A stretch of DNA of 64,000 nt from Pleomorphomonas sp. PLEO. GTDB taxonomy: Bacteria > Pseudomonadota > Alphaproteobacteria > Rhizobiales > Pleomorphomonadaceae. Positions 16,154 through 31,511 of this stretch are shown here, piece after piece. The DNA is taken from the NCBI RefSeq assembly GCF_041320595.1, contig NZ_CP166625.1:2119501-2183500 (forward strand). The letters run 5' to 3'. Under the pieces are notes generated by a model. It saw nothing but the letters and a program-made list of their open reading frames with translations. It did no database searches and had not been told where the DNA came from. Within the stretch, counting starts at the first letter, position 1; the number at the start of each line of letters is the position of its first letter. Both the position numbers and the translations under genes were made by a program.

Positions 16154-18655
16154 ATGACTGGCAGCATCAAAATGGCATTCGACACTGCGTTCTCTGCCGC
16201 CCCGGTTGGCGGAGATGTCGAGAAGAGTCTCGCCAGGCAGGCGGGCACCATCGTCGAACAGCGCGTGGCCGCCGTTGAGACAGGCCAGAACAGCGGCAGC
16301 ATGCTTTTTGCCATTCGTGCCGCTCTGTACGCCAGAACCGGTGCGCTTGCGGTTCTCCCCGCCAAGGCTGAAGTGCGGGCAGATCCAACGGCCGCCTACA
16401 ATGGGCTTTACGCTAATTCTACCGGAGGGACGGGGGCAGGAGCATGGACCAAGATCGCGGAGCTTCCCGATGAAATCATCCTGGCGGTTGACTCTGGGGC
16501 CGGCACCGCAAATGCCATAAAGGTCACTGTATCGAGGCTGCCGGCCGATGGCGCCGTGGTGAGCTTCGCTGCTTTCCAAGCGAACACTGCCGAAGACGTC
16601 ACGGTGGAAGTCGTCGGTGGCAGTACATATGCCATCCGGACTGCCGGTGGAGCGAAGCCGTCCGAAGGCGCCATCACTGCCGGCATGGTGTTGCTTGGCC
16701 GCGTGGATGCTGGAGCGAGCACTCTCCGCCTTGCCACCGACACGACGTCGATTGCTATCCAGACGGCATCTGAGGCGGCACGTGATCTTGCCAAGGACTT
16801 TGCTAACAAGGGCGAGGATCAGGTTGTCGCCGACGGTCTCTACTCGGCCAGGCATTGGGCGACGAAGGCGGCGGACGCGGACGCTGGAAGCGGTGCCGCT
16901 GCTGCTCGTGATGCGGCCGTAGCCGCTGCCGCGCTCGCCGCGCTCGCTGGCCAAACCGCTGAAGCCAAGGCCGCGGTTGCCGAGGAGGCTGCGGATGCGG
17001 CTCAAACTGCCGCCGCCAATGCGCAAGCATCCTCAAGAGTTTTTGGCTCGTGGACTGATCTGGTTATACGAACAGCGACCGTCGAAGGCGAAAGTGCCGA
17101 GGTGCTCGACAGTGATACGGGCACCCACTTGGACGGGACGGCAACCGGATACGATGGGACAGAAGTTCCGAATGCCGGCAGATACTATGGGGCCATCGGG
17201 TGGGGAGGGACGCGCTGGCTGCGGATTGGGTCAACGGGACTGTCTGCCAAGGCATCCACAACCGAGGTAAATGCCCGTATCGACCAGGGCGGCGATGAAG
17301 CGTCCGGCTATCTGTTCGAGTGGCTCGACAAAACGCGCCTGAAGCGTCTCGCCGGTATCCGGCTCGATGGTGTGTTCGAATTCCTCGGGCAAACACTGCC
17401 AGAATACGTTGGTGGCATCTTCGCGAAGATCGCCAGCCAAGACACTCGCCCTGGCGCGATGAGCGGGTACCTTTTCGAGTGGGTCGACACGACGGGCCGG
17501 CGGATAATGGGGCTGACGACGGCCGGTGTTCTCAAGGTCGGCGGCGCTGAGGTCCCGGCAGCTGCGCAACTCAACAAAACGCTGCGTAGCGACGGTTTGA
17601 CGACGGAGCCACTGATGGCGCCATGGCGCCTGCGGGAAACGAGGCGGCTGCTGCAGGCCCTCAAGGGTTCCGTCGCATCCAGTCAGTTGCCCATAAACCT
17701 CATCGGCGAATCGTGGATGGATGACCGCTCGCACTTTAGCCAAGCTCTGACGCAGCAGCTCAAGGCGGCCTTCGGCGATGCCGGCATCGGCTACGTGGGG
17801 GCTGGCAAGGGTTCGGCTGGTGGCGATGCCACTCTTGCCGCTACGGGATCATGGGTGGCGGAAGCAGCCAATCATACCACGCCGTCTGTCGCGGCGCCTT
17901 TCCCGAGCCTCTCGATCTACACCTCGTCGACGGCCGGTGACCAATTGTCGCTGACAGCGTCCAGTGGCGCCGACTCCATTGCGCTGCATCATCTCGGTGG
18001 CAATGGGGTGGTGCGATACCGCTATGGGTCTGGTTCATGGACAACGCTTGCCCTTGATGGCAGCGGTGCCCAGGTCAAATCGCTTTCCACGCCGCCAGCT
18101 GGTGCGTTGGCTCTGACCATTGAAGTCGTATCCGGCACCTGCGTCATCGGCGGCCCGGATGCTCGCAAGACGCAGAACGGAGTGCGCGTCAATAAGTGCG
18201 CGTCTGGCGGTTGCCGCGCATTGGAGTTCACGTCGCAAAACGAAGCCTCGTGGATTGCCGCCATGCAGGCTCTCGGCGCCCCGCTTAACGTTGTCATGCT
18301 GGGTATCAATAACCGCGCGGAGAGAACACTGGACCAATGGACCGCCGAGCTTGGCGAGTTGCTTCGGCGCCTCCGCATCGTCAGCCCGTTCGGCGATATT
18401 TTGGTAGTGTCACCGCCGGAGATCCAACAATCGTTCCCGACCAAGCCGATGAGCCAATGGAGCTATGTCGCCCGTACGCTCGCCGAGGCCTATGGGGCGG
18501 CACACCTCGATTTTCAGCAGTATTTCGGTGATGCGCCGGCCGACTACGGCAATGCCGGCCGGCAGTATTTCACATCGACCGATGACGCCCACACCGCCAC
18601 CAATGGCGACCAGATTCTTCGCGAGGGCTTCTTGCGTGCCCTTCTCTATTCCTGA
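16154..18655 (+). CDS. tail fibre with C-terminal SGNH/GDSL esterase domain
   Basis: This 833-residue protein has an N-terminal beta region that anchors it to the tail, an Ala-rich helical stalk (residues about 200-300), and short repeats of SGYLFEW type (about 380 and 440). Residues about 510-833 form an SGNH hydrolase. Block I INLIGESWMDD has nucleophile Ser520, block III MLGINNRA has Asn719, and block V DDAHTATNGD has Asp810 and His813. In known phage fibres such domains remove O-acetyl groups from host surface polysaccharide. RBS GAGGA precedes ATG 16154. It is the likely host-range determinant. Confidence 0.88.
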   Translation: MTGSIKMAFDTAFSAAPVGGDVEKSLARQAGTIVEQRVAAVETGQNSGSMLFAIRAALYARTGALAVLPAKAEVRADPTAAYNGLYANSTGGTGAGAWTKIAELPDEIILAVDSGAGTANAIKVTVSRLPADGAVVSFAAFQANTAEDVTVEVVGGSTYAIRTAGGAKPSEGAITAGMVLLGRVDAGASTLRLATDTTSIAIQTASEAARDLAKDFANKGEDQVVADGLYSARHWATKAADADAGSGAAAARDAAVAAAALAALAGQTAEAKAAVAEEAADAAQTAAANAQASSRVFGSWTDLVIRTATVEGESAEVLDSDTGTHLDGTATGYDGTEVPNAGRYYGAIGWGGTRWLRIGSTGLSAKASTTEVNARIDQGGDEASGYLFEWLDKTRLKRLAGIRLDGVFEFLGQTLPEYVGGIFAKIASQDTRPGAMSGYLFEWVDTTGRRIMGLTTAGVLKVGGAEVPAAAQLNKTLRSDGLTTEPLMAPWRLRETRRLLQALKGSVASSQLPINLIGESWMDDRSHFSQALTQQLKAAFGDAGIGYVGAGKGSAGGDATLAATGSWVAEAANHTTPSVAAPFPSLSIYTSSTAGDQLSLTASSGADSIALHHLGGNGVVRYRYGSGSWTTLALDGSGAQVKSLSTPPAGALALTIEVVSGTCVIGGPDARKTQNGVRVNKCASGGCRALEFTSQNEASWIAAMQALGAPLNVVMLGINNRAERTLDQWTAELGELLRRLRIVSPFGDILVVSPPEIQQSFPTKPMSQWSYVARTLAEAYGAAHLDFQQYFGDAPADYGNAGRQYFTSTDDAHTATNGDQILREGFLRALLYS

Positions 18656-18667
18656 TCGGAGACCATT

Positions 18668-19804
18668 ATGACGACGAGTTTCATCAGTGACGCAGCCACC
18701 ACGAACACCTCTTTACCGCTTGCCAAGGTCGATGCTTTGATTGACGGGGTCGATGCCGGTTTTTGGGGCTTCGATCTCGCCAGCAAGTATGGCTTTCCGC
18801 GCCAAGGCGCGCCCTATAGCGGTGACCTGGTCAAGGATCTGCAAGCCGGAGCTGGCGCCTATGGGGATGGTGCCATCGTCCAGGCCTCGGGCCAGTCGCT
18901 TGGCTATGTCGGCAAGATGCTCGATTTCTCCGACCTGACGTACCGCAACAGCTATGTGCAAGGACCGGCCAGTGTTTTAGCGGGGATTTGGGGAACGGGC
19001 AGTGGTGCCACGGCAACGGCAGCTCTTTCAGGCAGCACGGCCGTTGTTACAGTCACGGCCGGAGGCGCCGCCTACGTTGCCGGTAAAGCAACGGCAGTGT
19101 TCATAGGCGGTGGCTTGGCGAATGGGGTGACAGTCTCCTCGGCCTGCACGGTGGTTGGCGGTGCTGTTACTGCTGTGGCCTCTCCGGCGGCCACGTTCAC
19201 CAGCGCCCCGACAGTGGTCATTGTGCCGTCACCGCAACTCTGGCTGTGGTGCGGGTATTACAAGCTGCCAACCAACGCGGATTGGAATGCTGAAACAAGC
19301 AATGGCAATCGGTTCCCCCTGTTTCAGTGTTCTAATGATGATCAATCATTTGGTACCGATGCCGACATGTTGGCTGTTTTACAGCAAACTGACAAAACTC
19401 TGCGGTTCGCGAAACAGGGGTATGCAGCCCAAGGGGTCACCCTCGCCATAACGCCCGCCACACCGGATTATGGTGCTGTGTGCCAATTGGCGGCATGGGC
19501 TACACCGAGTGGTTTCTTTGTCCGCCTCAAGCGCCTCGAAACCGGCGCTGCGGCCATCTCCACCTCATGGACGACGACGGTCGCGCCGAACTCTCTTAAT
19601 TTCGCGGCCAAGACGCCCAAGTTTGGGCCGGCGGGGGCCTATGCCTTGAAGAGTGGCGGAGTGTGGAGCACCGCGCAACAGGCGGCGAGCAACTTCAAAG
19701 TCGGGCGTGGCTTCATCGAAAACCTTGGGATTACCGGCCGCGACCCTATCGGCGTGCTCGATGCCGACTGGGAACGGACGCTGGCGAGAGCGGTCTATAG
19801 CTGA
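18668..19804 (+). CDS. phage tail-associated protein, possible receptor-binding
   Basis: This 378-residue protein starts at ATG 18668, 12 bases after the fibre gene, with GGAG upstream. It has a Gly/Ala/Thr/Val repeat-rich middle (residues about 110-190) that looks like a beta-solenoid or prism, flanked by a Trp/Tyr-rich domain (QLWLWCGYYKLPTNADW) resembling carbohydrate-binding lectin-like folds. The C-terminus is LDADWERTLARAVYS. I recognise no named family. The position after the fibre and before a terminator suggests a second adhesin or fibre tip. Confidence 0.65.
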   Translation: MTTSFISDAATTNTSLPLAKVDALIDGVDAGFWGFDLASKYGFPRQGAPYSGDLVKDLQAGAGAYGDGAIVQASGQSLGYVGKMLDFSDLTYRNSYVQGPASVLAGIWGTGSGATATAALSGSTAVVTVTAGGAAYVAGKATAVFIGGGLANGVTVSSACTVVGGAVTAVASPAATFTSAPTVVIVPSPQLWLWCGYYKLPTNADWNAETSNGNRFPLFQCSNDDQSFGTDADMLAVLQQTDKTLRFAKQGYAAQGVTLAITPATPDYGAVCQLAAWATPSGFFVRLKRLETGAAAISTSWTTTVAPNSLNFAAKTPKFGPAGAYALKSGGVWSTAQQAASNFKVGRGFIENLGITGRDPIGVLDADWERTLARAVYS

Positions 19805-19852
19805 GGCAGGGGAGACGGAGGCGGGAAAACCCACCGTTTTTCCCTGACGTTC

Positions 19853-19874
19853 GCCCGCCTCGCGCGGGCTTTTT
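19853..19874 (+). terminator. intrinsic terminator after the tail operon
   Basis: Arms GCCCGC (19853-19858) and GCGGGC (19864-19869) pair perfectly around CTCGC and are followed by TTTTT (19870-19874). It lies 49 bases after the last tail gene and just before the lysis cassette. Confidence 0.8.
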
Positions 19875-19886
19875 CATGAGGCGACC

Positions 19887-19988
19887 ATGGAGCATCCCTT
19901 CATCTTGGTGGGGGTGGTCGCCTTTTGGCTGCTGTACCTCGCCGCCATAATCGTCGGCTTCGTCTGCTTCCCTCTGTTTATCTCATAA
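19887..19988 (+). CDS. 33-residue single-span membrane peptide ahead of the lysis genes
   Basis: ATG 19887 opens a 33-codon frame. The product begins MEHPFILVGVV, is almost entirely hydrophobic through the middle (AFWLLYLAAIIVGFVCF), and ends LFIS with TAA at 19986-19988. It starts 12 bases after the terminator T-run, with GAGGCGACC upstream as a weak ribosome site, and ends 9 bases before the next gene. One transmembrane helix and the setting at the head of the lysis cassette suggest a small holin-like or antiholin-like protein. The prediction rests on hydrophobicity and context alone. Confidence 0.55.
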   Translation: MEHPFILVGVVAFWLLYLAAIIVGFVCFPLFIS

Positions 19989-19997
19989 GGACTATCG

Positions 19998-20222
19998 ATG
20001 CGCCTGAAGCTCGTCGAGAACCATCGCGCCATTCTGGGCCGTGCGTGGTCGATCCGCTTTGCCGTTGCAGCCGGATTGCTGCACGGCGCCGGCCCGGCGA
20101 TCAGCGCTTGGGCACCCATCGAATGGGTCTGGCTGGCGGCGATCACGGAACCTTTGGCTTATCTGGCCGATGCCGGCGTGGTGATCGCCCGTATCGTCGC
20201 ACAGGACAATCTCAACACATAG
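19998..20222 (+). CDS. small membrane protein of the lysis cassette, DUF7940-like putative holin
   Basis: This 74-residue protein begins MRLKLVENHRAILGRAWSIRFAVAAGLLHGAGP, the pattern of the small DUF7940-like phage proteins placed directly before endolysin genes. It has one or two short hydrophobic segments (residues about 18-38 and 42-66). AAGGA lies 6 bases ahead of ATG 19998, and the lysozyme starts 9 bases after its stop. It is a good holin candidate by context, though the holin activity of this family is not something the sequence proves. Confidence 0.7.
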   Translation: MRLKLVENHRAILGRAWSIRFAVAAGLLHGAGPAISAWAPIEWVWLAAITEPLAYLADAGVVIARIVAQDNLNT

Positions 20223-20231
20223 GAGGCCCGC

Positions 20232-20813
20232 ATGGGCAAACTTGTTTCGTCCGCTCGGGCTCGGGCGGCGATCGCTGGCGCCATGATGCTGGCTGCGTCG
20301 GTCGGTGGCGTCTGGGTAGCCAAAGCTCCTGACGGCAAGACCTATCCTCTAGCCGTCACTATGGCGGCGGACACGTTGATCAAGCCGTGGGAGCAAGAAC
20401 GCCTCATTGCCTACCTTGATAGCGTGCGCGTTCCGACGATTTGTTTCGGCGAGACCAAGGGCGTCTATCTCGGGATGAAGAAGACGCACAGCGAATGCGT
20501 GGCGATGCTTTACCGCCGCGTCAACGAGGACTTTTACATTCCGCTGACGCTGTGCGCCGCCGGGTTCGAACGCGCCCCTGACCCGGTGCAGGCCAGCATG
20601 GTCTCCGGCGCCTACAACTTCGGCGTCGTGGCTTGGTGTCGGTCGACGGCTGCCAGGATGATCCGCGCCGCCCGCTACCGCGATGCCTGCCAAGCTCAGA
20701 CGGCCTTCAACCGAGCCGGTGGCGAAGTCCTTACCGGGCTGGTTCGTCGGCGCGAAATGGGCGATGCGCAGCGCATCGGCGAAGGCGAGCTTTGCGTGAG
20801 TGGTCTGAAATGA
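20232..20813 (+). CDS. endolysin, GH24 lysozyme with N-terminal signal-anchor
   Basis: This 193-residue protein has the T4-type lysozyme catalytic spacing Glu54-X8-Asp63-X5-Thr69 in WEQERLIAYLDSVRVPT, so the triad is intact. The first 30 residues (basic start, then AAIAGAMMLAASVGGVWVA) form a weakly hydrophobic, Gly/Ala-rich segment typical of SAR endolysins, which reach the periplasm by the Sec system and are released when the membrane depolarises. Cys residues are several (72, 87 and others), so disulphide control is possible. It cuts the glycan strands of peptidoglycan at lysis. Confidence 0.9.
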   Translation: MGKLVSSARARAAIAGAMMLAASVGGVWVAKAPDGKTYPLAVTMAADTLIKPWEQERLIAYLDSVRVPTICFGETKGVYLGMKKTHSECVAMLYRRVNEDFYIPLTLCAAGFERAPDPVQASMVSGAYNFGVVAWCRSTAARMIRAARYRDACQAQTAFNRAGGEVLTGLVRRREMGDAQRIGEGELCVSGLK

Positions 20814-20902
20814 TCCTCCCCGGCAACAAGCTGCGATCTGTAGAAGGCGGCGGACTGATGTTCCGCTGCCCAGACGGTGGACCTGCCGGATTGGGAGGAT
20901 GA
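20810..20902 (+). CDS. 30-codon remnant-like ORF between endolysin and spanin
   Basis: This 30-codon frame starts in the endolysin stop (ATGA overlap) and ends one base before the spanin GTG. The product reads NKLRSVEGGGLMFRCPDGGP, resembling the beginning of DUF6527-type small phage proteins (strand, then FxCPxC), but the second Cys is missing and it ends abruptly. It may be a truncated relic retained for translational coupling, since GGGAGG of the next gene lies within it. Confidence 0.4.
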   Translation: MILPGNKLRSVEGGGLMFRCPDGGPAGLGG

Positions 20903-20905
20903 GTG

Positions 20906-21304
20906 ATGTTCGGCCTTCTCGATAAGATCGGAACCACGGCTGCCGCTATCGCCGGTGTTGTTGCCGGCGCGCTTCTGACGGCCGCTCTCATGAGCCTCTA
21001 CATCTGGTTGTTCCACGATCCGGCCGTGGCCACCGCGGCGCGGGAGGGCTTCGTCGCAGCTTCTGAGAAGTTGGCCCTCCAGGGTCAGATCGATGAAATG
21101 AACCGCCAGTCCAAGCTCGCTGAGGCGGCGGCACAGAGTGACCGATTGCGAGCCGATGCAGCCAGTAAGGAGGCGGACAATGCGTGGAAGCAATATGAGG
21201 CTGCGGTTGCGGCCGACACTGGCGATGATGGCTGCCGCGTCTCTCCTGTCGATCTTGACTGGCTGCGGAAATCTCGAGGGGCGGCTGTCGGCAGCGTCAA
21301 GTGA
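20906..21304 (+). CDS. i-spanin, Rz-like
   Basis: This 132-residue protein has an N-terminal transmembrane helix (TTAAAIAGVVAGALLTAALMSLYIWLF) followed by a long Ala/Glu/Lys coiled coil (residues about 45-110), the layout of inner-membrane spanins. GGGAGG at 20893-20898 precedes it. GTG 20903 is an alternative start one codon earlier. The out-of-frame lipoprotein gene that begins inside it supports the Rz/Rz1 call. With its partner it fuses inner and outer membranes at the last step of lysis. Confidence 0.82.
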   Translation: MFGLLDKIGTTAAAIAGVVAGALLTAALMSLYIWLFHDPAVATAAREGFVAASEKLALQGQIDEMNRQSKLAEAAAQSDRLRADAASKEADNAWKQYEAAVAADTGDDGCRVSPVDLDWLRKSRGAAVGSVK

Positions 21305-21527
21305 GATCGGCCGGCAGAATGCTGGTATCGATCTCCCGACGCTCCCGGCGCGGTGCCGCGACAAAATGGGACGCGTGACGCCACAGCCGGGCGAGAAGTG
21401 GCGCGCTGTTCAAGGCCGGTGGGAGATAGTCGCCGACAATGAAGATCGCCGCACGGCCGATTGTGCAGCTTTCTATGACGATGTGCAGGGCAGCTTCGCC
21501 AAGCCGAGCGGGGGAAAGAATGGATGA
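21195..21527 (+). CDS. o-spanin, Rz1-like lipoprotein, starting inside the Rz-like gene
   Basis: This 110-residue protein begins MRLRLRPTLAMMAAASLLSI, with lipobox LTGC|G at the cleavage site (Cys at about residue 25). It starts in a different frame 110 bases before the Rz-like stop, an arrangement well known for lambda Rz1. The mature part has short Pro-containing segments (LPTLPARC, RVTPQPGEK). The frame extends upstream to 21138, but the 21195 start gives the cleanest signal peptide. The product would sit in the outer membrane and pair with the i-spanin. Confidence 0.8.
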   Translation: MRLRLRPTLAMMAAASLLSILTGCGNLEGRLSAASSEIGRQNAGIDLPTLPARCRDKMGRVTPQPGEKWRAVQGRWEIVADNEDRRTADCAAFYDDVQGSFAKPSGGKNG

Positions 21528-21918
21528 GCCGGATGGAATCTCGCGCTCGCTCGGGCGTGTCGAAGGTACCCTGCAGCAATTGATTAAGTCAGCCGAGGAG
21601 GACCGCGCATCGGCGGCTGATTGGCGTCGGAGCATATATCACCTGCTCCAGGACCATGCGGACGAGATCGGCAAGCTCCGCGAGGATGTCGTCATAGTCG
21701 GGGAGATCAGCACGCAGGCCCGCGAGCATGCCAAGAAAATCGAGAAGCGCCTTGATGAGGACATATCCCCAGACATTGCCGAGTGGCGAAAAATCAAGGC
21801 CATGGGCATGGGCATGTTCGCCCTGGTTGGTTTAGGCGGGGCTATAATCGCTTCGACCATTGCTTATTTCTGGGATGTCATCGCTATGGCTATCCGGAGC
21901 GGGCTGAAGATCCACTGA
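21520..21918 (+). CDS. DUF1515-like phage membrane protein
   Basis: This 132-residue protein starts at ATG 21520, overlapping the Rz1-like stop by 8 bases. The opening MDEPDGISRSLGRVEGTLQQLIKS, a long charged helix (residues about 20-85) and one transmembrane helix (MGMFALVGLGGAIIASTIAYFW, residues about 95-118) match DUF1515-like proteins of alphaproteobacterial prophages, which accompany lysis genes. It may be an accessory to lysis. Its function is not established. The open frame upstream to 21439 is not used in my view. Confidence 0.75.
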   Translation: MDEPDGISRSLGRVEGTLQQLIKSAEEDRASAADWRRSIYHLLQDHADEIGKLREDVVIVGEISTQAREHAKKIEKRLDEDISPDIAEWRKIKAMGMGMFALVGLGGAIIASTIAYFWDVIAMAIRSGLKIH

Positions 21919-21938
21919 GCATCGATCGTCATAAAGTA

Positions 21939-21973
21939 GGCCGCCTGCCGGGGAACCGGTGGGCGGCCTTTTT
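21939..21973 (+). terminator. strong intrinsic terminator at the end of the late operon
   Basis: Arms at 21939-21951 and 21956-21968 pair over 13 bp with two wobble pairs around a GGAA loop and are followed by five T residues (21969-21973). It lies 20 bases after the DUF1515-like gene and ends the plus-strand late operon. Confidence 0.9.
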
Positions 21974-21977
21974 GTTT

Positions 21978-22187
21978 TCAGCCCGGCCCAGGTCGTGCTG
22001 GCTCAATTCGCTGCCTATCCACCGACACGAGAATGCGCTCCACGGATGTCCTCATCACCCGGTGGACAGCCCGAGAGCATTCCTCGTCGATATTCATGCG
22101 ACCGATACCTTCGATGATGCAGATGCAATCATCGATAATCAATGCATCGCTCACAATACCTTCTAGTTTATCCTCACCACCAGACAT
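21978..22187 (-). CDS. small acidic phage protein on the opposite strand, unknown
   Basis: This 69-residue protein is read towards the late operon terminator. Its start ATG (22185-22187) has GGGGGAAG about 9 bases upstream on the same strand. The product is acidic and helical at the N-terminus (GGEDKLEGIVSDALIIDDCICIIEGIGRMNIDEEC) and basic at the C-terminus. No motif is recognisable. It diverges from the helix-turn-helix gene at 22350 across a 162-base AT-rich spacer, as regulators in prophage ends often do. The competing plus-strand frame at 22033-22353 looks like a shadow. Confidence 0.5.
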   Translation of the reverse strand: MSGGEDKLEGIVSDALIIDDCICIIEGIGRMNIDEECSRAVHRVMRTSVERILVSVDRQRIEPARPGPG

Positions 22188-22316
22188 AGTTAATTACTTC
22201 CCCCACAGATACGCAGTTACAGAACCCGCGTTTATCGCGCATTATCTTCTTGAGAGAACTAGCGGTATTTATATATTCTTTATAGACCAGTTAACTACCA
22301 GCCGCCTAAAATATCA

Positions 22317-22334
22317 AGGTTACAAACGTAACCT
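22317..22334. promoter_or_regulatory. perfect inverted repeat, probable operator
   Basis: AGGTTAC (22317-22323) and GTAACCT (22328-22334) form perfect 7-bp arms around AAAC. It sits 15 bases before the start of the helix-turn-helix gene in an AT-rich spacer between two divergent genes, consistent with autoregulation by a dimeric repressor. Confidence 0.6.
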
Positions 22335-22349
22335 AATGGTGGTGGTCGC

Positions 22350-22835
22350 TTGATTTTCTTTTTCTCTAGTTGTGGTGCTGTACGAGAAATCATAGCGAGG
22401 GCGGCTCGATCGGTATTCGGGCGCACCATTGTAGTGGTATCCGCTTATACCGAGCCTGCGCTTCAATCAGCGCGCCGAATCGGTTGTCGTGTGATCCTGG
22501 ATAGGCCGACAGAAGAGGTCATGCGGCTGTTCGAAGATCGTCCTGATGAAGGCGCCGTCCTGGAGCTGATCGACCTTAGCGACGACGATGCCATCAGGGT
22601 CGTGCCATTTGCTCCGCCACGGCCGCGAGAGACAATTGCTGTCAACGGTAGCCACTCAGACCATGAGGCCCTGGCATTCGATCTCCGCAGTCGTGGAATG
22701 TCATACGAGGAGATGGCGGTGGCCATGGAGTGCGACGTCCAGACCATCAAGACGTACATCCTCAGGGCGCGCGTCAAGAACCGTCGTGATGCCCAGATGG
22801 AGGAGGCGTTGCGGTTGTCCGTGCCTTCTGATTGA
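22350..22835 (+). CDS. helix-turn-helix regulator near the prophage end
   Basis: This protein is up to 161 residues. The only in-frame start after the previous stop is TTG 22350. GTG near 22432 or ATG 22521 are later choices, so the N-terminus is uncertain. The last 50 residues form a sigma-70 region-4 / LuxR-like helix-turn-helix: LRSRGMSYEEMAVAMECDVQTIKTYILRAR. The N-terminal part is mixed with no clear domain. An AGGTTAC palindrome lies immediately upstream. It may control late or lysogeny genes of the prophage. Confidence 0.6.
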   Translation: MIFFFSSCGAVREIIARAARSVFGRTIVVVSAYTEPALQSARRIGCRVILDRPTEEVMRLFEDRPDEGAVLELIDLSDDDAIRVVPFAPPRPRETIAVNGSHSDHEALAFDLRSRGMSYEEMAVAMECDVQTIKTYILRARVKNRRDAQMEEALRLSVPSD

Positions 22836-22977
22836 CCAGGATGCCGCATGCAGAGTTCGCCCATCGGTTTGGGGCTTGCTTCACGGTCTCGCAGATGCCA
22901 AAACGCGGGCACCCAAGGGGACGAGCGCGATCCATAAACGGTCCAAAACCTGTCGGTGATCCGCTAAGTACTTGATG

Positions 22978-23053
22978 GGCCTGTAGCTCAATGGTTAGAG
23001 CCGGCCGCTCATAACGGTCTGGTTGCAGGTTCGAGTCCTGCCGGGCCCACCAC
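22978..23053 (+). tRNA. tRNA-Ile with CAU anticodon (lysidine type)
   Basis: This 76-base cloverleaf has acceptor arms GGGCCTG/CGGGCCC, D stem GCTC/GAGC, anticodon stem GGCCG/CGGTC with loop CTCATAA (anticodon CAT at loop positions 3-5), T arm GCAGG-TTCGAGT-CCTGC, then A and an encoded CCA end. The CTCATAA loop and acceptor sequence resemble the minor tRNA-Ile whose C34 is modified to lysidine, rather than elongator or initiator Met. It lies between the last phage gene and the glycan locus and may mark the prophage junction. Confidence 0.93.
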
Positions 23054-23452: not shown

Positions 23453-25051
23453 ATGCGGACGAAAGCTTGCTATGTACTGAATCTTTTTCTGAAAATGCGC
23501 CTCTCAAGGACATTTTTGCTTTTTTTAGTTTTTTTGGCCGCGGTTCAGTCTGTCTGGATATTCATTCTCGGATTTTCTTATCCTATTCTCGATGCGCATG
23601 CATTCCGGCAAACGCAGACGGCACTATCGGTTTACTGGATGGGTCATGGAGGGGCGCTTCTCAATTATGAAACGCCAGTCCTCGGTGCACCCTGGGCAAT
23701 TCCGTTCGAGTTTCCTATTTATCAGTGGATGGTCCTGGGGGTGTCCAGAGTTTCCGGTTTACCGCTCGATGGGGCCGGCCGAAGTGTTTCCTATGCATTT
23801 TTCTTGCTTACGTTGATACCCCTGCGCGTCATCAGCGGATATTTTTATAAATCGCGCGATGTGTTTCTAATCTCGGTCATATTATTTTTGATATCGCCAA
23901 TTTACCTGTTTTGGTCGCGGACTTTCATGATTGAATCGGTCGCGCTTTTTGCTTCTCTCAGCTTCATTGCGTGCGTCATCCGCTGGGTTCAGGCGCCATC
24001 TTTGCTGAAGCTAGCCTTTGCCACACTTTTTGCCACGCTCGCAGCTTTGCAGAAGATCACAACTTTCCTACCCGCGGCGATCGTCGCGGGCGTTATCGCT
24101 CTGGATTATATGTGGCGGATCGTGCCGAGCAAACTGGAAGGCGAACGCACCTTCCGAAAGGCTATTTTCGAAGTATTCAGATTTTTTCCGCTTGTACTGC
24201 CTGTTATCGTCTCCATCGTCCTTTTTGAATTTTGGTTGAAATGGTCCGATCAAAGCAAGGCGCTGAATTCATTCGGAGACAGCCTTACGTCGGCAGCCTT
24301 GACGAGCTGGAATTTTGGATCCTGGGCGCAAAGGGTCAGTTGGCCTTTCTGGCTGGTGGTTCACAGTAGAATTTTCCCACAAACCGTTGCGTCGCTAGAG
24401 GTCGTCATATTATTATTTGGAGTTGTTTTCTTTCTGAAGCCGAAGTGCATGAAGAGTGCTCTATTGGTGCTCCCTGGATTTTTCGGGGGGCTTTTGCTAT
24501 TTTCAAACCTGCATTTTGTTCATAACTATTATCAATATGCCATTTCAATCTATCTGATCCTTGCGGTTGCCTTTGTTGTCCATGAGGTCGAACGAGTTCG
24601 ACCGTTGCTCGGAGTTGTTTCTTTATTTGTCTTGATGATCAGTTGCGAGTTTGTATTCTTTGCCGGCGGCCAGAGTTATTTTCACGCCGTGCGGAACGGG
24701 GCTAGTCTTCAAGACAGCCAAACGATGCAACTGGCTAGATTCATCAAGGAAAAAACGCCTCAGGATAGCGTTATCATCGGGTTTGGTTATGACTGGTCCT
24801 CGGAGCTTTCCTATTACGCGGAAAGACGGAGCTTGATGGTCCCGTCTTGGGCGAAGGACGATCGTCTGAAAGATATTCTGGAAGACCCCAAGCCGTACCT
24901 TGGTGGGCTGCCGATCGGCGCGGTCGTCGTCTGTCAGTCGGACACGCCGCCGGGTCAAAAGAGCCTCATCGATTCCAGTGTTGGATTCACTGGGTTGTTA
25001 GCTGGAATGAATAGGACGGTGGTTTCCGGCTGCGATGTGGCGTGGAACTGA
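23453..25051 (+). CDS. GT-C membrane glycosyltransferase, GT39/ArnT-like
   Basis: This 532-residue protein has about 11-12 hydrophobic segments. Between the first two segments comes FSYPILDAHAFRQTQTALSVYWM, the Asp-containing periplasmic loop signature of GT-C enzymes (DxHxxRQTQTA type), which use polyprenyl-phosphate sugars. The C-terminal 80 residues are a soluble periplasmic tail. Codon use is more AT-rich than in the genes downstream. Placed at the head of the UbiA/DprE1/DprE2 locus, it is the best candidate for the transferase that uses the lipid-linked pentose made there. ATG 23453 or 23495 could be the start. Confidence 0.78.
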   Translation: MRTKACYVLNLFLKMRLSRTFLLFLVFLAAVQSVWIFILGFSYPILDAHAFRQTQTALSVYWMGHGGALLNYETPVLGAPWAIPFEFPIYQWMVLGVSRVSGLPLDGAGRSVSYAFFLLTLIPLRVISGYFYKSRDVFLISVILFLISPIYLFWSRTFMIESVALFASLSFIACVIRWVQAPSLLKLAFATLFATLAALQKITTFLPAAIVAGVIALDYMWRIVPSKLEGERTFRKAIFEVFRFFPLVLPVIVSIVLFEFWLKWSDQSKALNSFGDSLTSAALTSWNFGSWAQRVSWPFWLVVHSRIFPQTVASLEVVILLFGVVFFLKPKCMKSALLVLPGFFGGLLLFSNLHFVHNYYQYAISIYLILAVAFVVHEVERVRPLLGVVSLFVLMISCEFVFFAGGQSYFHAVRNGASLQDSQTMQLARFIKEKTPQDSVIIGFGYDWSSELSYYAERRSLMVPSWAKDDRLKDILEDPKPYLGGLPIGAVVVCQSDTPPGQKSLIDSSVGFTGLLAGMNRTVVSGCDVAWN

Positions 25052-25264: not shown

Positions 25265-26740
25265 ATGGACTTTGATGTGGAAACGGGTGAAGAGAAAATT
25301 CCATCTCTGAATTTCGGTTTATCTGTTCCCCTCGTCCTGGATATGGATGGGGCGCTTCTGGCGACAGATACGCTCCATGAAGCTGTGGTCTGTTTCATCA
25401 GGCGACGCGGGCTGGCTGTTTTCAAGGCGCCTAGCTGGTTGATGCGGGGGAGGGGGTATTTCAAAACCCAAATACTGTCATCTCTTACCGCCGAAGACAT
25501 CGCCTATCTTCCGTCGGTGGCGGAAGTCGTCGCCTTTGCCGAACGCGAAGCGAGCCTCGGCCGACGCGTTGTCTTGACGACGGCGGCGGATCGGGCGATT
25601 GCCGAACGGGTGGCCGCGCACTACCCCTTCGTTGCCGAGATCATCGCTTCCGACGAAGGCGGCGGTCTCAAGGGAGCCGACAAGGCGAGCCTGTTGGCCA
25701 AGCGATTTCCAGAAGGCTTTGTCTATGCTGGCGATTCTTCGGTCGATCCAGCCATCTGGAAAGCGGCCGTCGGTACCATTGTTGTTGGACCCACGGCCGG
25801 TCCAAAAGCGGCGCTTCCTCAAAATGGCCAATGGCTGCATACCGCCACGGGCCGCGGCGGCTTACTTGCCGTGCTGCGGCGCAGTCTGCGTCTGCATCAG
25901 TGGGTCAAGAACGGCTTGGTGTTCGTGCCGTTGATTCTCAGCGGCCAACTGTTCGACCCCTGGGATTGGCTGCGTGTGCTGATCGGCTTCATCGCCATCG
26001 GCCTGCTTGCGTCGGCGACCTATGTTCTCAATGACTTGTGGGACCTTTCCGAGGATCGCCAGCACTGGTCGAAGCGAAATCGTCCCCTGGCCAGCGGTCG
26101 GCTATCGATTATTGGCGGCGTCACCCTTATTGCCAGCTGTGGCCTGGGCTCGCTGGCCGCGGGATTGGCGCTCGGGCCTGCTGTGGTCGGGGTTTTGTCG
26201 CTCTACCTCGTTATCAGCCTCGCCTATTCTTTCCGCTTCAAGCGCGAGCCGATCATCGACGTCTTTCTCCTCGCCACGATGTTCAGTCTTCGTCTGGCCC
26301 TCGGTATTGCCATCACCCACGCCAAGCCGTCGCCGTGGCTGATCGTGTTCTCCATGTTTACCTTTCTTTCGCTTTCCTTGGCCAAGCGTCTGACCGAGAT
26401 CAAGCGCATGGCCGAACACGGCCTCGAGCGAACCTTGGGGCGCGGCTATGAAGCCGCCGATGCGCCACTGGTCCTAGCACTGGGCGTCGGATCCACCTTG
26501 GCGACGGTGCTGATCATGGTGCTCTATCTCATTGATGATGCCTTCCCGGCAGGGGTTTATCATCGGCCCGATTTTCTCTGGGGCTTCCCGATCGTCATCT
26601 TCCTGTTTCTCTCTCGCATCTGGTTGGTCTGCCATCGGGGTGATCTGCACGACGACCCCGTCGCCTACGCGCTGAAGGATAAGGTTTCCCTTTTCTACGG
26701 CGCGACAATGACGGCCTTATTCGTTGCGGCAATGGTGTAG
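25265..26740 (+). CDS. HAD phosphatase-UbiA prenyltransferase fusion (decaprenyl-phosphate phosphoribosyltransferase-like)
   Basis: This protein is 491 residues from ATG 25265 (GTG 25208 and ATG 25217 are longer options). Residues about 20-190 are a HAD domain with VLDMDGALLATD (Asp26, Asp28), the VLTTAADRA motif II and AGDSSVD (Asp157, Asp161). Residues about 210-490 are a UbiA membrane domain with about 8 helices and NDLWDLSEDR (Asn256-Arg265), then KRNRPLASG. UbiA enzymes of this type join PRPP to decaprenyl phosphate. The product needs dephosphorylation, which the HAD half could do. The DprE1- and DprE2-like genes follow directly. Confidence 0.88.
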   Translation: MDFDVETGEEKIPSLNFGLSVPLVLDMDGALLATDTLHEAVVCFIRRRGLAVFKAPSWLMRGRGYFKTQILSSLTAEDIAYLPSVAEVVAFAEREASLGRRVVLTTAADRAIAERVAAHYPFVAEIIASDEGGGLKGADKASLLAKRFPEGFVYAGDSSVDPAIWKAAVGTIVVGPTAGPKAALPQNGQWLHTATGRGGLLAVLRRSLRLHQWVKNGLVFVPLILSGQLFDPWDWLRVLIGFIAIGLLASATYVLNDLWDLSEDRQHWSKRNRPLASGRLSIIGGVTLIASCGLGSLAAGLALGPAVVGVLSLYLVISLAYSFRFKREPIIDVFLLATMFSLRLALGIAITHAKPSPWLIVFSMFTFLSLSLAKRLTEIKRMAEHGLERTLGRGYEAADAPLVLALGVGSTLATVLIMVLYLIDDAFPAGVYHRPDFLWGFPIVIFLFLSRIWLVCHRGDLHDDPVAYALKDKVSLFYGATMTALFVAAMV

Positions 26741-26746
26741 GCATAC

Positions 26747-28096
26747 ATGCTCAGATCTTCGATACCCCGCTTCACCGACCGCACCGACGTCTTTTCCTGG
26801 GGAAGGGTACGACGCGAACCTCAACGGCTCGCCCATCCGACCTTTGCCGATCAACTCTCCGGTCTCGCCGTTGACGCCACGCGGCCCAGTCGGTTGGCGA
26901 CCGGTCTGCGCCGATCCTACGGGGACTCCTGTCTCAACGGCCCCGGCCTTCTTATCGACATGACCGGCGTCGATCGCTTCATCTCCTTCGATCGCGACAC
27001 CGGTCGACTGGTTGCCGAGGCCGGCATCAGCCTGTCGCATATCCTGCAGGTCGTGGTGCCGCAGGGTTGGTTCTTGCCGACGACTCCGGGAACGCGTTTC
27101 GTTACGTTGGGTGGCGCCGTTGCCAACGACGTCCACGGCAAAAATCACCATCGCTTCGGCAGCATGGGGTGCAGTGTCCGATCGCTCGGCCTGATCAGCG
27201 GCGATGGGGCGCGTCTGACCATCGGCCCGAACGACCGGCCGGATTTGTTCGCCGCGACCATCGGCGGTCTCGGTCTGACGGGCGTGATTGAATGGGTCGA
27301 GTTGCAGCTGGTCCGGGTAGGCAGCGCCTATCTTGATGTCGAAACCATCCCTTACGACAATCTGGGTGCCTTCTGGGCTCTGGCTGACGAAAGCACGGTC
27401 AGTCACGAACATACCGTCGCCTGGATCGACTGCATGAGCCGTGGCGCTCGGACGGGACGCGGTGTCTTCACCCGCGCCAATTGGGCCTCCGACGGTGCGT
27501 ATACCATCCATTCCGACCGAACCTGGAAGAGCATGCCGCTCGAACTGCCCGGTTTTGCGCTCAATCGCCTTTCGGTCGCGGCCTTCAATGAGTTCTATTT
27601 CCGCCTTCACAAGATGAAGCCTCGCCACCAGCGCCAGCACTATGCGACCTATTTCTATCCGCTCGACGCCGTCTTGAACTGGAATCGCCTCTATGGTCGG
27701 CGCGGCATGATGCAATACCAGTGCGTCGTTCCACCCGGCAGCGACCGCGCCGTGATGGGCGTTCTTCTCGACGAAATATCGCGCTCGGGTCAGGCCTCGT
27801 TCCTGGCTGTGCTCAAGACATTCGGCGATGTTGCCTCGCCCGGCCTGTTGTCGTTTCCGCGCCCTGGTGCCACCTTGGCCCTCGACTTTCCCAATCGCGG
27901 CGTCGAGACGCTGGCTCTGATGGCCCGGCTCGACCGGATCGTGGCCGATGCCGGTGGCGCACTCTATCCGGCGAAAGACGGGCGCATGCCCGCCGACATG
28001 TTCCGGCGTTCCTTTCCCGATTGGCAGCGCTTCGCTGGCTTGAAGGATCCCAAGATGAATTCCGATTTCTGGCGAAGGGTCTCACTCGATGACTGA
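26747..28096 (+). CDS. DprE1-like FAD oxidase (decaprenylphosphoryl-ribose 2'-oxidase)
   Basis: This 449-residue FAD-linked oxidase has GLRRSYGDSCLNGPG and PTTPGTRFVTLGGAVANDVHGKNHH, closely resembling the FAD-binding core of mycobacterial DprE1. LSFPRPGATLALDFPNRG and GALYPAKDGRMP at the C-terminus include the conserved Lys410 (Lys418 in M. tuberculosis). DprE1 oxidises the 2'-hydroxyl of lipid-linked ribose, the first half of epimerisation to arabinose. The residue matching Cys387, the target of benzothiazinones, is Ala378. It starts 6 bases after the UbiA gene and overlaps the DprE2-like gene by 8 bases. Confidence 0.9.
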   Translation: MLRSSIPRFTDRTDVFSWGRVRREPQRLAHPTFADQLSGLAVDATRPSRLATGLRRSYGDSCLNGPGLLIDMTGVDRFISFDRDTGRLVAEAGISLSHILQVVVPQGWFLPTTPGTRFVTLGGAVANDVHGKNHHRFGSMGCSVRSLGLISGDGARLTIGPNDRPDLFAATIGGLGLTGVIEWVELQLVRVGSAYLDVETIPYDNLGAFWALADESTVSHEHTVAWIDCMSRGARTGRGVFTRANWASDGAYTIHSDRTWKSMPLELPGFALNRLSVAAFNEFYFRLHKMKPRHQRQHYATYFYPLDAVLNWNRLYGRRGMMQYQCVVPPGSDRAVMGVLLDEISRSGQASFLAVLKTFGDVASPGLLSFPRPGATLALDFPNRGVETLALMARLDRIVADAGGALYPAKDGRMPADMFRRSFPDWQRFAGLKDPKMNSDFWRRVSLDD

Positions 28097-28838
28097 TGTT
28101 GTGAAGCGTATCGTGATCCTGGGCGCCACCTCGGCCATGGCGGAAGCCGCGGCGCGGCGATGGGCCGGGCAAGGCGCCGAGATGATCCTGGTCGGACGCG
28201 ATGTGACCCGGCTGGAGGCGATCGCCAAGGACTTGCTGGTGCGTGGCGCCGCTGGCGCGACCACCGTCGGTCTGGATTGTGCCACCGCCGATGCCGTGGC
28301 GTCGTTGACGGGATTTGTCGAGACGCTCGGTGGTCTAGATGTGCTGTTGCTGGCCTATGGCGCGCTCGGCGATCAGGCCGAATTCGAAACGGACCCCAAG
28401 GCGACCGCCGATCTGTTCCGCACCAACTTCACCAGTGCCGCCGCCTGGTGTCAGGCCGGCGCGACGGTTCTCGAACGGCAGGGCTTCGGCGTTCTTGTTG
28501 TCATAGGCTCGGTGGCCGGTGATCGCGGGCGGCGGTCGAACTATGTTTATGGTGCATCGAAGGCCGGCCTTGGCGTGCTGGTCCAGGGTATCGCTCATCG
28601 TCTGGCTGGCAGTGGGGCCCGTGCCGTGTTGATCAAGCCCGGCTTCGTTGACACGCCGATGACCGCGGGGATTACCCGCAAGGGGCTGTTGTGGGCCAAG
28701 CCGGAGACGCTTGGTGCCATCATCGTCGCCTCGGCGGTCAAGGGGAAGCCGATCGTCTATGCCCCAGCCTTCTGGCGCTTCATCATGGCAATTGTCCGCA
28801 ACGTTCCGGCGGCCATCTTCCACAAGACCAAACTCTGA
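28089..28838 (+). CDS. DprE2-like short-chain dehydrogenase (2-keto-pentose reductase)
   Basis: This 249-residue SDR has the cofactor motif ILGATSAMAEA near the N-terminus, IGSVAGDRGRRSNYVYGASKAG with the catalytic Tyr-X3-Lys, and KPGFVDTPMTAG, matching DprE2-type reductases. It would reduce the 2-keto intermediate produced by the DprE1-like enzyme to lipid-linked D-arabinofuranose. The start overlaps the DprE1 gene by 8 bases, indicating coupling and probably a complex, as reported for the mycobacterial pair. It also has a hydrophobic C-terminus (FWRFIMAIVRNVPAAIFH) that may touch the membrane. Confidence 0.88.
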   Translation: MTDVVKRIVILGATSAMAEAAARRWAGQGAEMILVGRDVTRLEAIAKDLLVRGAAGATTVGLDCATADAVASLTGFVETLGGLDVLLLAYGALGDQAEFETDPKATADLFRTNFTSAAAWCQAGATVLERQGFGVLVVIGSVAGDRGRRSNYVYGASKAGLGVLVQGIAHRLAGSGARAVLIKPGFVDTPMTAGITRKGLLWAKPETLGAIIVASAVKGKPIVYAPAFWRFIMAIVRNVPAAIFHKTKL

Positions 28839-28853: not shown

Positions 28854-29801
28854 GTGCCGATTTCGAGCGAGCGAAAGATCGTTATTACCGGTGGCGCCGG
28901 CCTGGTGGGCCAAAATCTGATCCAGCGGCTGGAGGCGCGCGGAATAGGCCATATCGTCGCCATCGACAAACATCCCGCCAATACGGCGATCCTGGCGAAA
29001 CTGCATCCCGGCGTCGAGGTGATCGAGGCCGACATGGCCCACGCCGGTGCTTGGCAAGACGCCTTCGCCGGGGCCGACACCGTGGTGCTGAACCACGCCC
29101 AGATCGGCGGGGTGGACGAACGGCCCTTCACCAGCAACAACATTACTGCCAGCGAGCATGCCGTCGCCGCGGCGTTGCGTCATGCCGTCGCCAACGTGGT
29201 TCACATCAGCTCGTCGGTGGTCAATTCGCAAGCCCGCGACTTCTACACCGAATCCAAGAAGGCCCAGGAGAAGCTCGTGGTCGCCAGCGGCCTGCCGGTC
29301 TGCGTCTTGCGGCCGACCTTGATGTTCGGCTGGTTCGATCGCAAGCACCTCGGCTGGCTCGCCCGTTTCATTCAACGCTCTCCGATCTTCCCGGTGCCAG
29401 GTTCGGGGCGTTACCTGCGCCAGCCGCTTTATGTCGGCGATCTGTGCGAGATCATCATTTCCTGTATCGAAACGCCCCGACCGGGCCAGGCGTTCAACAT
29501 CTCGGGCCAGGAAAAGATCGACTATATAGATCTGATCCGCGCGGTGAAGACGGCGATCCGCGCCTCGACCCCCATTGTCCGGATTCCCTATTCGCTATTC
29601 TGGTTGCTGCTCAAGACCTATGCTCTGGTCGATCGCGATCCGCCCTTTACCACCCAGCAGCTCAAGGCGCTGGTCACACCGGACGTGTTCGAAGTCATCG
29701 ACTGGCCGGGGATATTCGGCGTGAAAGCGACGCCTCTGGCGGATGCGCTGCATCAGACCTTCCAGGATCCGACCTATTCCGACATCGTGCTGGAGTTTTG
29801 A
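28854..29801 (+). CDS. NAD-dependent epimerase/dehydratase
   Basis: This 315-residue extended SDR starts at GTG 28854, 15 bases after the DprE2-like gene. It has VITGGAGLVGQNL for NAD binding, HISSSVVNS with a YTESKKAQE segment carrying the Tyr-X3-Lys pair, and PLYVGDLCEIIISCIE, typical of sugar-nucleotide epimerases. The substrate cannot be read from sequence. Within this locus it probably tailors a nucleotide or lipid-linked sugar. The C-terminal half includes a hydrophobic FWLLLKTYALV segment. Confidence 0.85.
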   Translation: MPISSERKIVITGGAGLVGQNLIQRLEARGIGHIVAIDKHPANTAILAKLHPGVEVIEADMAHAGAWQDAFAGADTVVLNHAQIGGVDERPFTSNNITASEHAVAAALRHAVANVVHISSSVVNSQARDFYTESKKAQEKLVVASGLPVCVLRPTLMFGWFDRKHLGWLARFIQRSPIFPVPGSGRYLRQPLYVGDLCEIIISCIETPRPGQAFNISGQEKIDYIDLIRAVKTAIRASTPIVRIPYSLFWLLLKTYALVDRDPPFTTQQLKALVTPDVFEVIDWPGIFGVKATPLADALHQTFQDPTYSDIVLEF

Positions 29802-29804
29802 GCC

Positions 29805-31103
29805 GTGAAGCGAGTCGCAATCATAGGCGGCGGCGCCATGGGGCTGGCCGCTGCCTATCACGCAGTCAAGGCCGGGCATCGCGTCACCGTTTACGAGGCT
29901 GACGCGGTGGCTGGCGGCATGGCCGCCCATTTCGATTTCGATGGCCTGTCGATCGAACGTTACTATCACTTCGTGTGCAAGCCGGATCAGGCGACCTTCG
30001 ACTTGATGGAGGAACTCGGGATCGGCGATCGCATGCGCTGGGTGCCGACGTCGATGGGCTATTTTGTCGACGGGGCGCTGCACGAGTGGGGTAACCCCCT
30101 CGCTTTGTTGCGCTTTCCGGCGCTGAACCTGATCGATAAGCTGCGCTATGGCTTGATGATGTTTGTTTCCGTCAAGCGGAAAAGCCCGGGCAATCTGGAG
30201 ACCACCGCCGCCAAGTCGTGGATCGAACGTTGGTGCGGCAAGCGGGTCTACGACAAGCTGTGGCGGCCGCTGTTCGACCTGAAGTTCTATCAATATGCCG
30301 ACAATGTCTCGGCGGCATGGATCTGGACCCGCATCAAGCGGGTGGGCTCCTCGCGCCGGTCCCTGATGCAGGAAGAACTCGGCTACATCGACGGGGGAAG
30401 CGAAACCCTGGTGACGGCGCTGGTCGGCGCCATCGAGCGCCTCGGCGGTGAAATACGCCTGTCGGCGCCAGTGTCGGAGATTGTCAGTATCGGCGGTCGT
30501 GTCACCGGCGTGGTCGCGGGCGGACAGGAAGAAGCCTACGACGCGGTGATCTCAACCGTGCCCATTTCCCTGATACCGGACCTTGTCCCAACCTTGCCGG
30601 CGGCGAGCAAGGCGGCCTACGAGGCCATCCTGAACATCGGCGTCGCCTGCCTGATCTTCAAATTGAAGCGGTCGGTCACGCCGCACTTCTGGGTCAACAT
30701 CACCGACAACCGCATCGCCATCCCCGGCATCGTCGAGTTTTCCAATCTCCGCCAGACCGGCGATACCATCGTCTACGTGCCCTATTATATGCCGGTGACC
30801 AACCCGAAGTGGGCAATGTCGAATGAGGAACTGTTGGCCGAAGCCTTTGGTTATCTCAAGCTGGTCAACCCGCAATTGACCGACGCCGATCTGATCGCCG
30901 CCCGCGTCGGGCGGCTGACCCATGCCCAACCGGTGTGCCCGCCCGGGTTCGCCGCGCACATTCCCCCGGTCCAGACCTCCATTGCCGGATTGCAGATCGC
31001 CGACACTTGTTTCTATTATCCGGAAGACCGGGGCATTTCCGAAGGCGCACGATATGGCCGGTTGATGGCAGCGGCCATCGACGATCCGTCGGTGTGGGGG
31101 TAG
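29805..31103 (+). CDS. FAD-dependent amine-oxidase-like oxidoreductase
   Basis: This 432-residue protein starts at GTG 29805, 3 bases after the epimerase. The N-terminal Rossmann motif is VAIIGGGAMGLAAAYHAV with the downstream YEADAVAGGMA. IDGGSETLVTALVGAIERLGG is the second conserved FAD segment, and the C-terminal ACLIF..., FYYPEDRGISEGARYGR closes the flavin domain. The family includes protoporphyrinogen oxidase-like and polysaccharide-locus oxidoreductases. The reaction here is unknown. Placement in the arabinose-type locus suggests a sugar or lipid substrate. UDP-galactopyranose mutase is less likely given the sequence. Confidence 0.85.
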   Translation: MKRVAIIGGGAMGLAAAYHAVKAGHRVTVYEADAVAGGMAAHFDFDGLSIERYYHFVCKPDQATFDLMEELGIGDRMRWVPTSMGYFVDGALHEWGNPLALLRFPALNLIDKLRYGLMMFVSVKRKSPGNLETTAAKSWIERWCGKRVYDKLWRPLFDLKFYQYADNVSAAWIWTRIKRVGSSRRSLMQEELGYIDGGSETLVTALVGAIERLGGEIRLSAPVSEIVSIGGRVTGVVAGGQEEAYDAVISTVPISLIPDLVPTLPAASKAAYEAILNIGVACLIFKLKRSVTPHFWVNITDNRIAIPGIVEFSNLRQTGDTIVYVPYYMPVTNPKWAMSNEELLAEAFGYLKLVNPQLTDADLIAARVGRLTHAQPVCPPGFAAHIPPVQTSIAGLQIADTCFYYPEDRGISEGARYGRLMAAAIDDPSVWG

Positions 31104-31109
31104 GCCTGC

Positions 31110-31511
31110 ATGCTTTCGCGAGAGTTCCTTCGTTTCCTGATGACCGGTGGCGTCGCAGCGATTGTCAATCTCGGCAGTCGCTATGGCCTGAGCTATTTCG
31201 TCCGGTTTGAGATTGCCGTCGTCCTTGCCTATCTGCTCGGCATGCTGACCGCCTATGTGCTGGCCAGGATCTTTGTCTTCGTACCCTCTGGACGGTCTTT
31301 AGCCTCGGAATTGTGGCGCTTCACCATGGTCAATCTCGTGTCCCTTGCCATGGTCTGGTCAATCAGCGTTGCCTTGGCCAGAATCGTCTTTCCCGCCATC
31401 GGGTTCATTTGGCACCCGGAAGACGTCGCTCACGTCATTGGCGTGCTGGCGCCGGCCGTTGTCAGCTATTTCGGCCATCGCTTCTATACCTTTGCCAGAG
31501 ATGTTTCCTGA
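31110..31511 (+). CDS. GtrA-family membrane protein
   Basis: This 133-residue protein has four transmembrane helices and begins MLSREFLRFLMTGGVAAIVNLGSRYGLSY, the standard GtrA/DPMS3 opening, ending HVIGVLAPAVVSYFGHRFYTF. GtrA proteins are thought to flip polyprenyl-phosphate-linked sugars across the inner membrane or to support the enzyme that makes them. It closes the UbiA/DprE-type operon, 6 bases after the flavoenzyme, so it is the likely route of the lipid-linked pentose to the periplasmic GT-C enzyme. Confidence 0.88.
   Translation: MLSREFLRFLMTGGVAAIVNLGSRYGLSYFVRFEIAVVLAYLLGMLTAYVLARIFVFVPSGRSLASELWRFTMVNLVSLAMVWSISVALARIVFPAIGFIWHPEDVAHVIGVLAPAVVSYFGHRFYTFARDVS

Follow-up and report, generated by a model that had tools for sequence, protein, structure and literature searches.

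The question raised by this locus is how the 5-phosphate left on the lipid-linked product of a UbiA polyprenyl-phosphate phosphoribosyltransferase is removed. We examined it in a 64,000-nucleotide stretch of Pleomorphomonas sp. PLEO (NZ_CP166625.1, positions 2,119,501 to 2,183,500 of the forward strand), referred to as a whole as the window. The original prediction was that a HAD phosphatase domain preceding UbiA in the same chain removes this phosphate. The protein and its two halves are:

25265..26740, + strand: fused HAD (phosphoribosyl phosphatase-like) and UbiA (polyprenyl-phosphate phosphoribosyltransferase) protein, 491 aa, assigned from translation and NF006088
25322..25834, + strand: HAD half, about residues 20-190, HAD phosphatase fold, assigned from PF12710 and conservation in 51 homologues
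25859..26737, + strand: UbiA half, about residues 199-491, assigned from 8j8j and NF008977 scores and residue mapping to ORF15

The frame was open over its 491 codons, and an alternative GTG start 57 bases upstream would give a protein of 510 aa. The NCBIfam model for fused HAD-UbiA proteins (NF006088, PRK08238) scored 550 bits against a curated cut-off of 351, and its match spanned residues 19-490 and profile positions 10-480 of 482. Pfam placed UbiA at residues 226-457 (89 bits) and the HAD domain PF12710 at residues 24-161, the latter with 26.8 bits, just below the cut-off of 27. The predicted arrangement of a HAD domain ahead of UbiA in one chain was thus borne out, and the protein is an unexceptional representative of NF006088, a widespread family whose two-in-one enzyme has already been published.

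The motifs of the HAD half were complete: D26 and D28 (motif I), T106 (motif II), K140 (motif III), and D157 and D161 (motif IV, G156-D157-x3-D161). All four aspartates named at the outset, in motifs I and IV, were therefore present, with T106 and K140 found besides. To describe conservation, we aligned 51 fused proteins gathered from genomes across Pseudomonadota, 47 of which kept the full active site. D26 was found in 48/51, D28 in 47/51 and T or S at position 106 in 49/51; position 140 held K or R in all except one (K 48, R 2), and D161 was invariant (51/51). Position 157 was N in 28, D in 19 and E in 2 of the 51 proteins, and the 'GDxxxD' form of motif IV carried by the window protein is a minority form. 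A structure model of the HAD half alone, of modest confidence (3-sequence alignment, pLDDT 72, pTM 0.74), had the HAD Rossmannoid fold and matched mostly HAD phosphatases, among them prominently the phosphoserine phosphatases SerB/PSP (Foldseek E down to 6e-5, VIA Z about 12). The full-length model, likewise from a 3-sequence alignment, was set aside at pLDDT 53.

The UbiA half carries N256, D257, D260 and D264, R375 and E378, and D464, P465 and D472. Its closest solved UbiA structure was 8j8j, the DPPR synthase of M. tuberculosis, with an E value of 4e-21 for the window sequence alone; a 20-member profile gave 4e-49 for 8j8j versus 4e-9 for the next UbiA enzyme. NF008977, the model for the stand-alone type of DPPR synthase, gave 139 bits, under its curated cut-off of 234, which places the UbiA half outside that family as defined, whereas the stand-alone UbiA proteins of two other loci (L092 and L141) exceeded this cut-off.

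A tested homologue exists in ORF15 of Citrobacter youngae O1 (AWU66546.1), in which a HAD phosphoribosyl phosphatase forms the N-terminal part and a UbiA polyprenyl phosphoribosyltransferase the C-terminal part (Kelly et al., PNAS 2024, PMC11127046). Wild-type ORF15 membranes converted farnesyl-P and PRPP to farnesyl-P-Ribf, while the D18A variant yielded mainly farnesyl-P-Ribf-5-P with a small residue of dephosphorylated product and was leaky both in vitro and in vivo (PMC11127046). This leakiness indicates that other phosphatases are able to do part of the 5-phosphate removal. We compared the two proteins through the published residue numbers (PMC11127046). ORF15 residues N247, D248, D251, D255, R366 and E369 correspond in the window protein to N256, D257, D260, D264, R375 and E378, with all six identical at a single offset of +9; none of the other offsets between -60 and +99 reached even four of the six. 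The nucleophile D18 corresponds to D26, at an offset of +8. The window protein thus shows the features of the PRP-PPPRS type represented by ORF15, namely a HAD domain N-terminal to UbiA with a DxD nucleophile and the remaining HAD motifs, and the six identical UbiA residues in the published numbering.

The fused gene heads a tight operon on the same strand, preceded by a gene for a multi-membrane-span protein:

23453..25051, + strand: protein of 532 aa with multiple membrane spans, candidate GT-C glycosyltransferase that may use the lipid donor
26747..28096, + strand: DprE1-like FAD oxidase, separated from the fused gene by 6 bp (NF053785, 359 bits)
28089..28838, + strand: DprE2-like SDR reductase, overlapping the DprE1-like gene by 8 bp (NF053786, NF005489)
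28854..29801, + strand: NAD-dependent epimerase/dehydratase-family protein (PF01370, 78 bits), in the same order as in Bosea L011
29805..31103, + strand: FAD-dependent amine-oxidase-like protein (NF005560/PRK07233, 531 bits, cut-off 252)
31110..31511, + strand: GtrA-family membrane protein, candidate polyprenyl-P-sugar flippase (PF04138, 56 bits)

The DprE1 equivalog model NF053785 was by far the best match for the first gene after the fusion, but its 359 bits lie below the cut-off of 500 that defines membership, a value reached by none of the 337 alphaproteobacteria sampled. The DprE2-like gene also scored below cut-offs (NF053786, 175 bits versus 250; NF005489, 255 bits versus 267). The order of fused HAD-UbiA followed by DprE1/DprE2 was kept in Bosea and in distant proteobacteria. 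For the 532 aa protein upstream, a Pfam search gave no match, and TIGR03663 was the sole NCBIfam match at 20 bits, far under its cut-off. The trio of epimerase-like, PRK07233 FAD-oxidoreductase-like and GtrA genes (28854-31511) recurs in L011, L074, L091 and L147-L150, in distant proteobacteria in the company of fused HAD-UbiA, DprE1 and DprE2. Farther upstream in the window (16154-22977), ORFs that resemble tail and lysis genes of phages stop right before a tRNA-Met (22977-23052), and a prophage integrated at this tRNA is suggested.

Taken together, we consider the fused protein very probably a bifunctional polyprenyl-phospho-ribofuranose synthase whose HAD half takes off the 5-phosphate. For the window itself we computed the domain content, the completeness of the active sites, the structure of the operon and the residue correspondence with ORF15; both enzyme activities would carry over by analogy from ORF15, where they have been shown. 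The UbiA half would load ribose-5-phosphate onto the membrane lipid, and the cytoplasmic HAD half, in which D26 would be the nucleophile and D28 the acid/base, would remove the 5-phosphate to give polyprenyl-P-ribofuranose. The adjacent DprE1- and DprE2-like enzymes may then epimerise C2 to yield polyprenyl-P-arabinofuranose, the GtrA-type protein may flip the lipid-sugar, and the candidate GT-C enzyme may attach the pentofuranose to a glycan of the cell surface. For this organism we infer the substrates, the step order, the acceptor glycan and the flippase and GT-C assignments. The proposal that the fused HAD removes the phosphate left by UbiA is thus supported by the activity of ORF15 (PMC11127046) and by equivalent residues at constant offset. 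As an economical solution to a missing step, the fusion is not new, since the family is common and the mechanism was published in 2024. Counting against this assignment are the DprE1/E2 scores under their cut-offs, the leaky D18A variant, and HAD domains that are degenerate or absent in some lineages.

A fusion unique to this locus was ruled out, as 20 of the 337 alphaproteobacterial genomes encode the fused protein, which is also common in other Pseudomonadota and lies on many rhizobial plasmids. A search of phages for the enzyme retrieved nothing fused; the two matches were partial, one to the HAD only on a viral contig and one to UbiA in a phage record. An unrooted tree built from 83 UbiA domains divided into the stand-alone type (20 rows) and the fused type (63 rows) along a long branch with full support, and the window protein lay nearest to Bosea sp. 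117 and Methylocystis sp. H62. The fused-type rows comprised 48 with an intact or near-intact HAD, 8 with a degenerate HAD and 7 without one. The simplest reading is one old proteobacterial fusion with later losses, the direction being inferred given that the tree is unrooted. With the HAD degenerate in 8 and absent in 7 fused-type members, not every lineage depends on the domain.

If the HAD serves the product of UbiA, it is expected wherever UbiA is, with or without DprE1. Among the 20 fused alphaproteobacterial genomes, DprE1 was linked in 11, located elsewhere in 1 and undetected in 8 (E<=1e-50), and DprE2 gave no match at E<=1e-30 in the four fused genomes checked. A HAD tied specifically to DprE1 was ruled out by these eight genomes without DprE1 and four without DprE2. 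Since a DprE1 match is lacking in many fused genomes, we associate the HAD with the UbiA step and not with DprE1.

If phosphate removal has to be catalysed, loci with a stand-alone UbiA might be expected to hold a phosphatase of their own. One genome (G402, L141:3442-10712) has a split pathway with DprE1, DprE2, a stand-alone HAD-IB phosphatase, a membrane protein, UbiA, a PF03706 protein and a PMT-like GT; this operon is a split version of the window pathway, and we counted it in favour of the HAD being the 5-phosphatase. The other 16 DprE1-linked loci of stand-alone type held no HAD of the fused-type profile within the stretch examined, and no PRP-like stand-alone HAD was found elsewhere in the stand-alone-UbiA genomes tested with NF006088 at E<=1e-4. 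A linked PAP2 protein that could act as substitute was not found in the genomes tested, where PAP2 matches lay on other contigs or more than 200 kb away and several genomes had none. Membrane proteins of PF03706 (LPG synthase TM-like, ~330 aa), candidate lipid-sugar flippases, occurred as direct neighbours of UbiA or between it and DprE1:

L093:5820-6809, PF03706 protein
L100:2897-3916, PF03706 protein
L103:6834 onward, PF03706 protein
L141:8122-9081, PF03706 protein
L076:4743-5720, PF03706 protein

Degenerate HADs still fused to UbiA were found in G131 and G316 (D26 replaced by E or P, motif IV altered), in G140, and in a five-genome, genus-level clade with large genomes from the same taxonomic order (L132-L136), whose shortened HAD reads IDLEG (DxE) and has lost motifs III and IV:

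L135:7322-8647, example of a degenerate HAD-UbiA fusion

DprE1/E2 lay near the degenerate fusion in G131 and G316, and at 3-7 kb from it in three of the five clade members. In L135, the start of an ORF adjoining the DprE1-like gene (14790-15596) reads by eye like a UppP/BacA undecaprenyl-diphosphatase. If the 5-phosphate is removed at all in these lineages, another factor has to do it, which agrees with the leaky ORF15 D18A and with the non-essentiality of Rv3807c, the proposed phosphatase of M. tuberculosis (PMC5964476). Given that lineages with a decayed or lost HAD keep UbiA-DprE1-DprE2 and that most stand-alone-UbiA genomes have no linked phosphatase, it is conceivable, if on balance doubtful, that the fused HAD is a dispensable accelerator and not the obligatory 5-phosphatase, with another cytoplasmic or membrane phosphatase acting across bacteria, mycobacteria included.

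We regard it as improbable that the HAD half instead acts on soluble ribose-phosphate or PRPP, or regulates UbiA, while an unlinked general phosphatase clears the lipid 5-phosphate. The residual activity of ORF15 D18A (PMC11127046) would fit such an arrangement, as would the stand-alone-UbiA loci with DprE1/E2 but mostly no linked phosphatase, and the stand-alone ~200 aa proteins of the same HAD subfamily that occur away from UbiA in small alphaproteobacterial genomes. The mutated homologue, however, accumulates precisely the predicted 5-phospho product (PMC11127046), and the fusion with an intact active site has been retained across a deep lineage. The stand-alone HADs just mentioned were seen in L112-L130 (for example L121:7351-7884 and L118:6342-6884); L118, L121 and L124 have both neighbouring gene families in common with one another, and in L121 these are GrpE and a DciA-like gene.

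Broken-active-site remnants fused to UbiA (L029, L030, L035 and L132-L136) show what a HAD half that is an inactive or structural remnant, with a separate phosphatase acting, could look like; for the window protein this is very improbable, as its HAD carries every catalytic residue, its closest relatives L011 and L012 also keep them, and no PAP2 gene is linked to the locus, the genome's two PAP2 genes being more than 700 kb away. The UbiA superfamily is broad, but a quinone or other prenyltransferase adjacent to DprE1/E2 by accident is a negligible possibility for this UbiA half, given DPPR synthase scores far above those of other UbiA enzymes, all six UbiA residues probed in ORF15 and a neighbourhood conserved in other genomes.

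With the bifunctional synthase as the preferred assignment, an old fused lineage, repeated decay or loss of the HAD, and stand-alone loci mostly without a linked phosphatase together narrow the search for the 5-phosphatase of lineages without an intact HAD. Rv3806c of M. tuberculosis (8j8j) resembles the window in its UbiA chemistry and in the downstream epimerase pair DprE1/DprE2, but its UbiA stands alone. The separate mycobacterial phosphatase assumed in the original prediction has indeed been proposed, the PAP2-type Rv3807c, although the case is less settled than it implied, Rv3807c being reported as non-essential (PMC5964476).

In other systems, the same chemistry is distributed differently. 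Pilin arabinosylation in P. aeruginosa and P. syringae also combines a PPPRS with a dephosphorylation step for Araf; the P. aeruginosa system uses separate proteins, and the P. syringae candidate is said to have a C-terminal PRP domain (PMC11127046). The gPRT-PRP ribofuranosyltransferases likewise couple a phosphoribosyl transfer domain to a HAD phosphatase for 5-phosphate removal, but they act on a cytoplasmic glycan and their transferase domain is not UbiA (PMC11127046, PMC11231755). ORF15 shares with the window protein an N-terminal HAD and a C-terminal UbiA in one chain, with D18 and D26 as nucleophiles. It supplies ribofuranose, or xylofuranose together with ORF13, to O-antigen side chains, using a MATE flippase and GT136 (PMC11127046), whereas the DprE1/E2-like genes of the window predict arabinofuranose and its flippase candidate is GtrA-like. 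In Araf systems, DprE1/E2 homologues stand beside such three-component systems (PMC11127046). The window is a clear alphaproteobacterial case of the published bifunctional enzyme directly upstream of an arabinose epimerase pair, an arrangement from which a D-arabinofuranose-bearing surface glycan is predicted in this organism.
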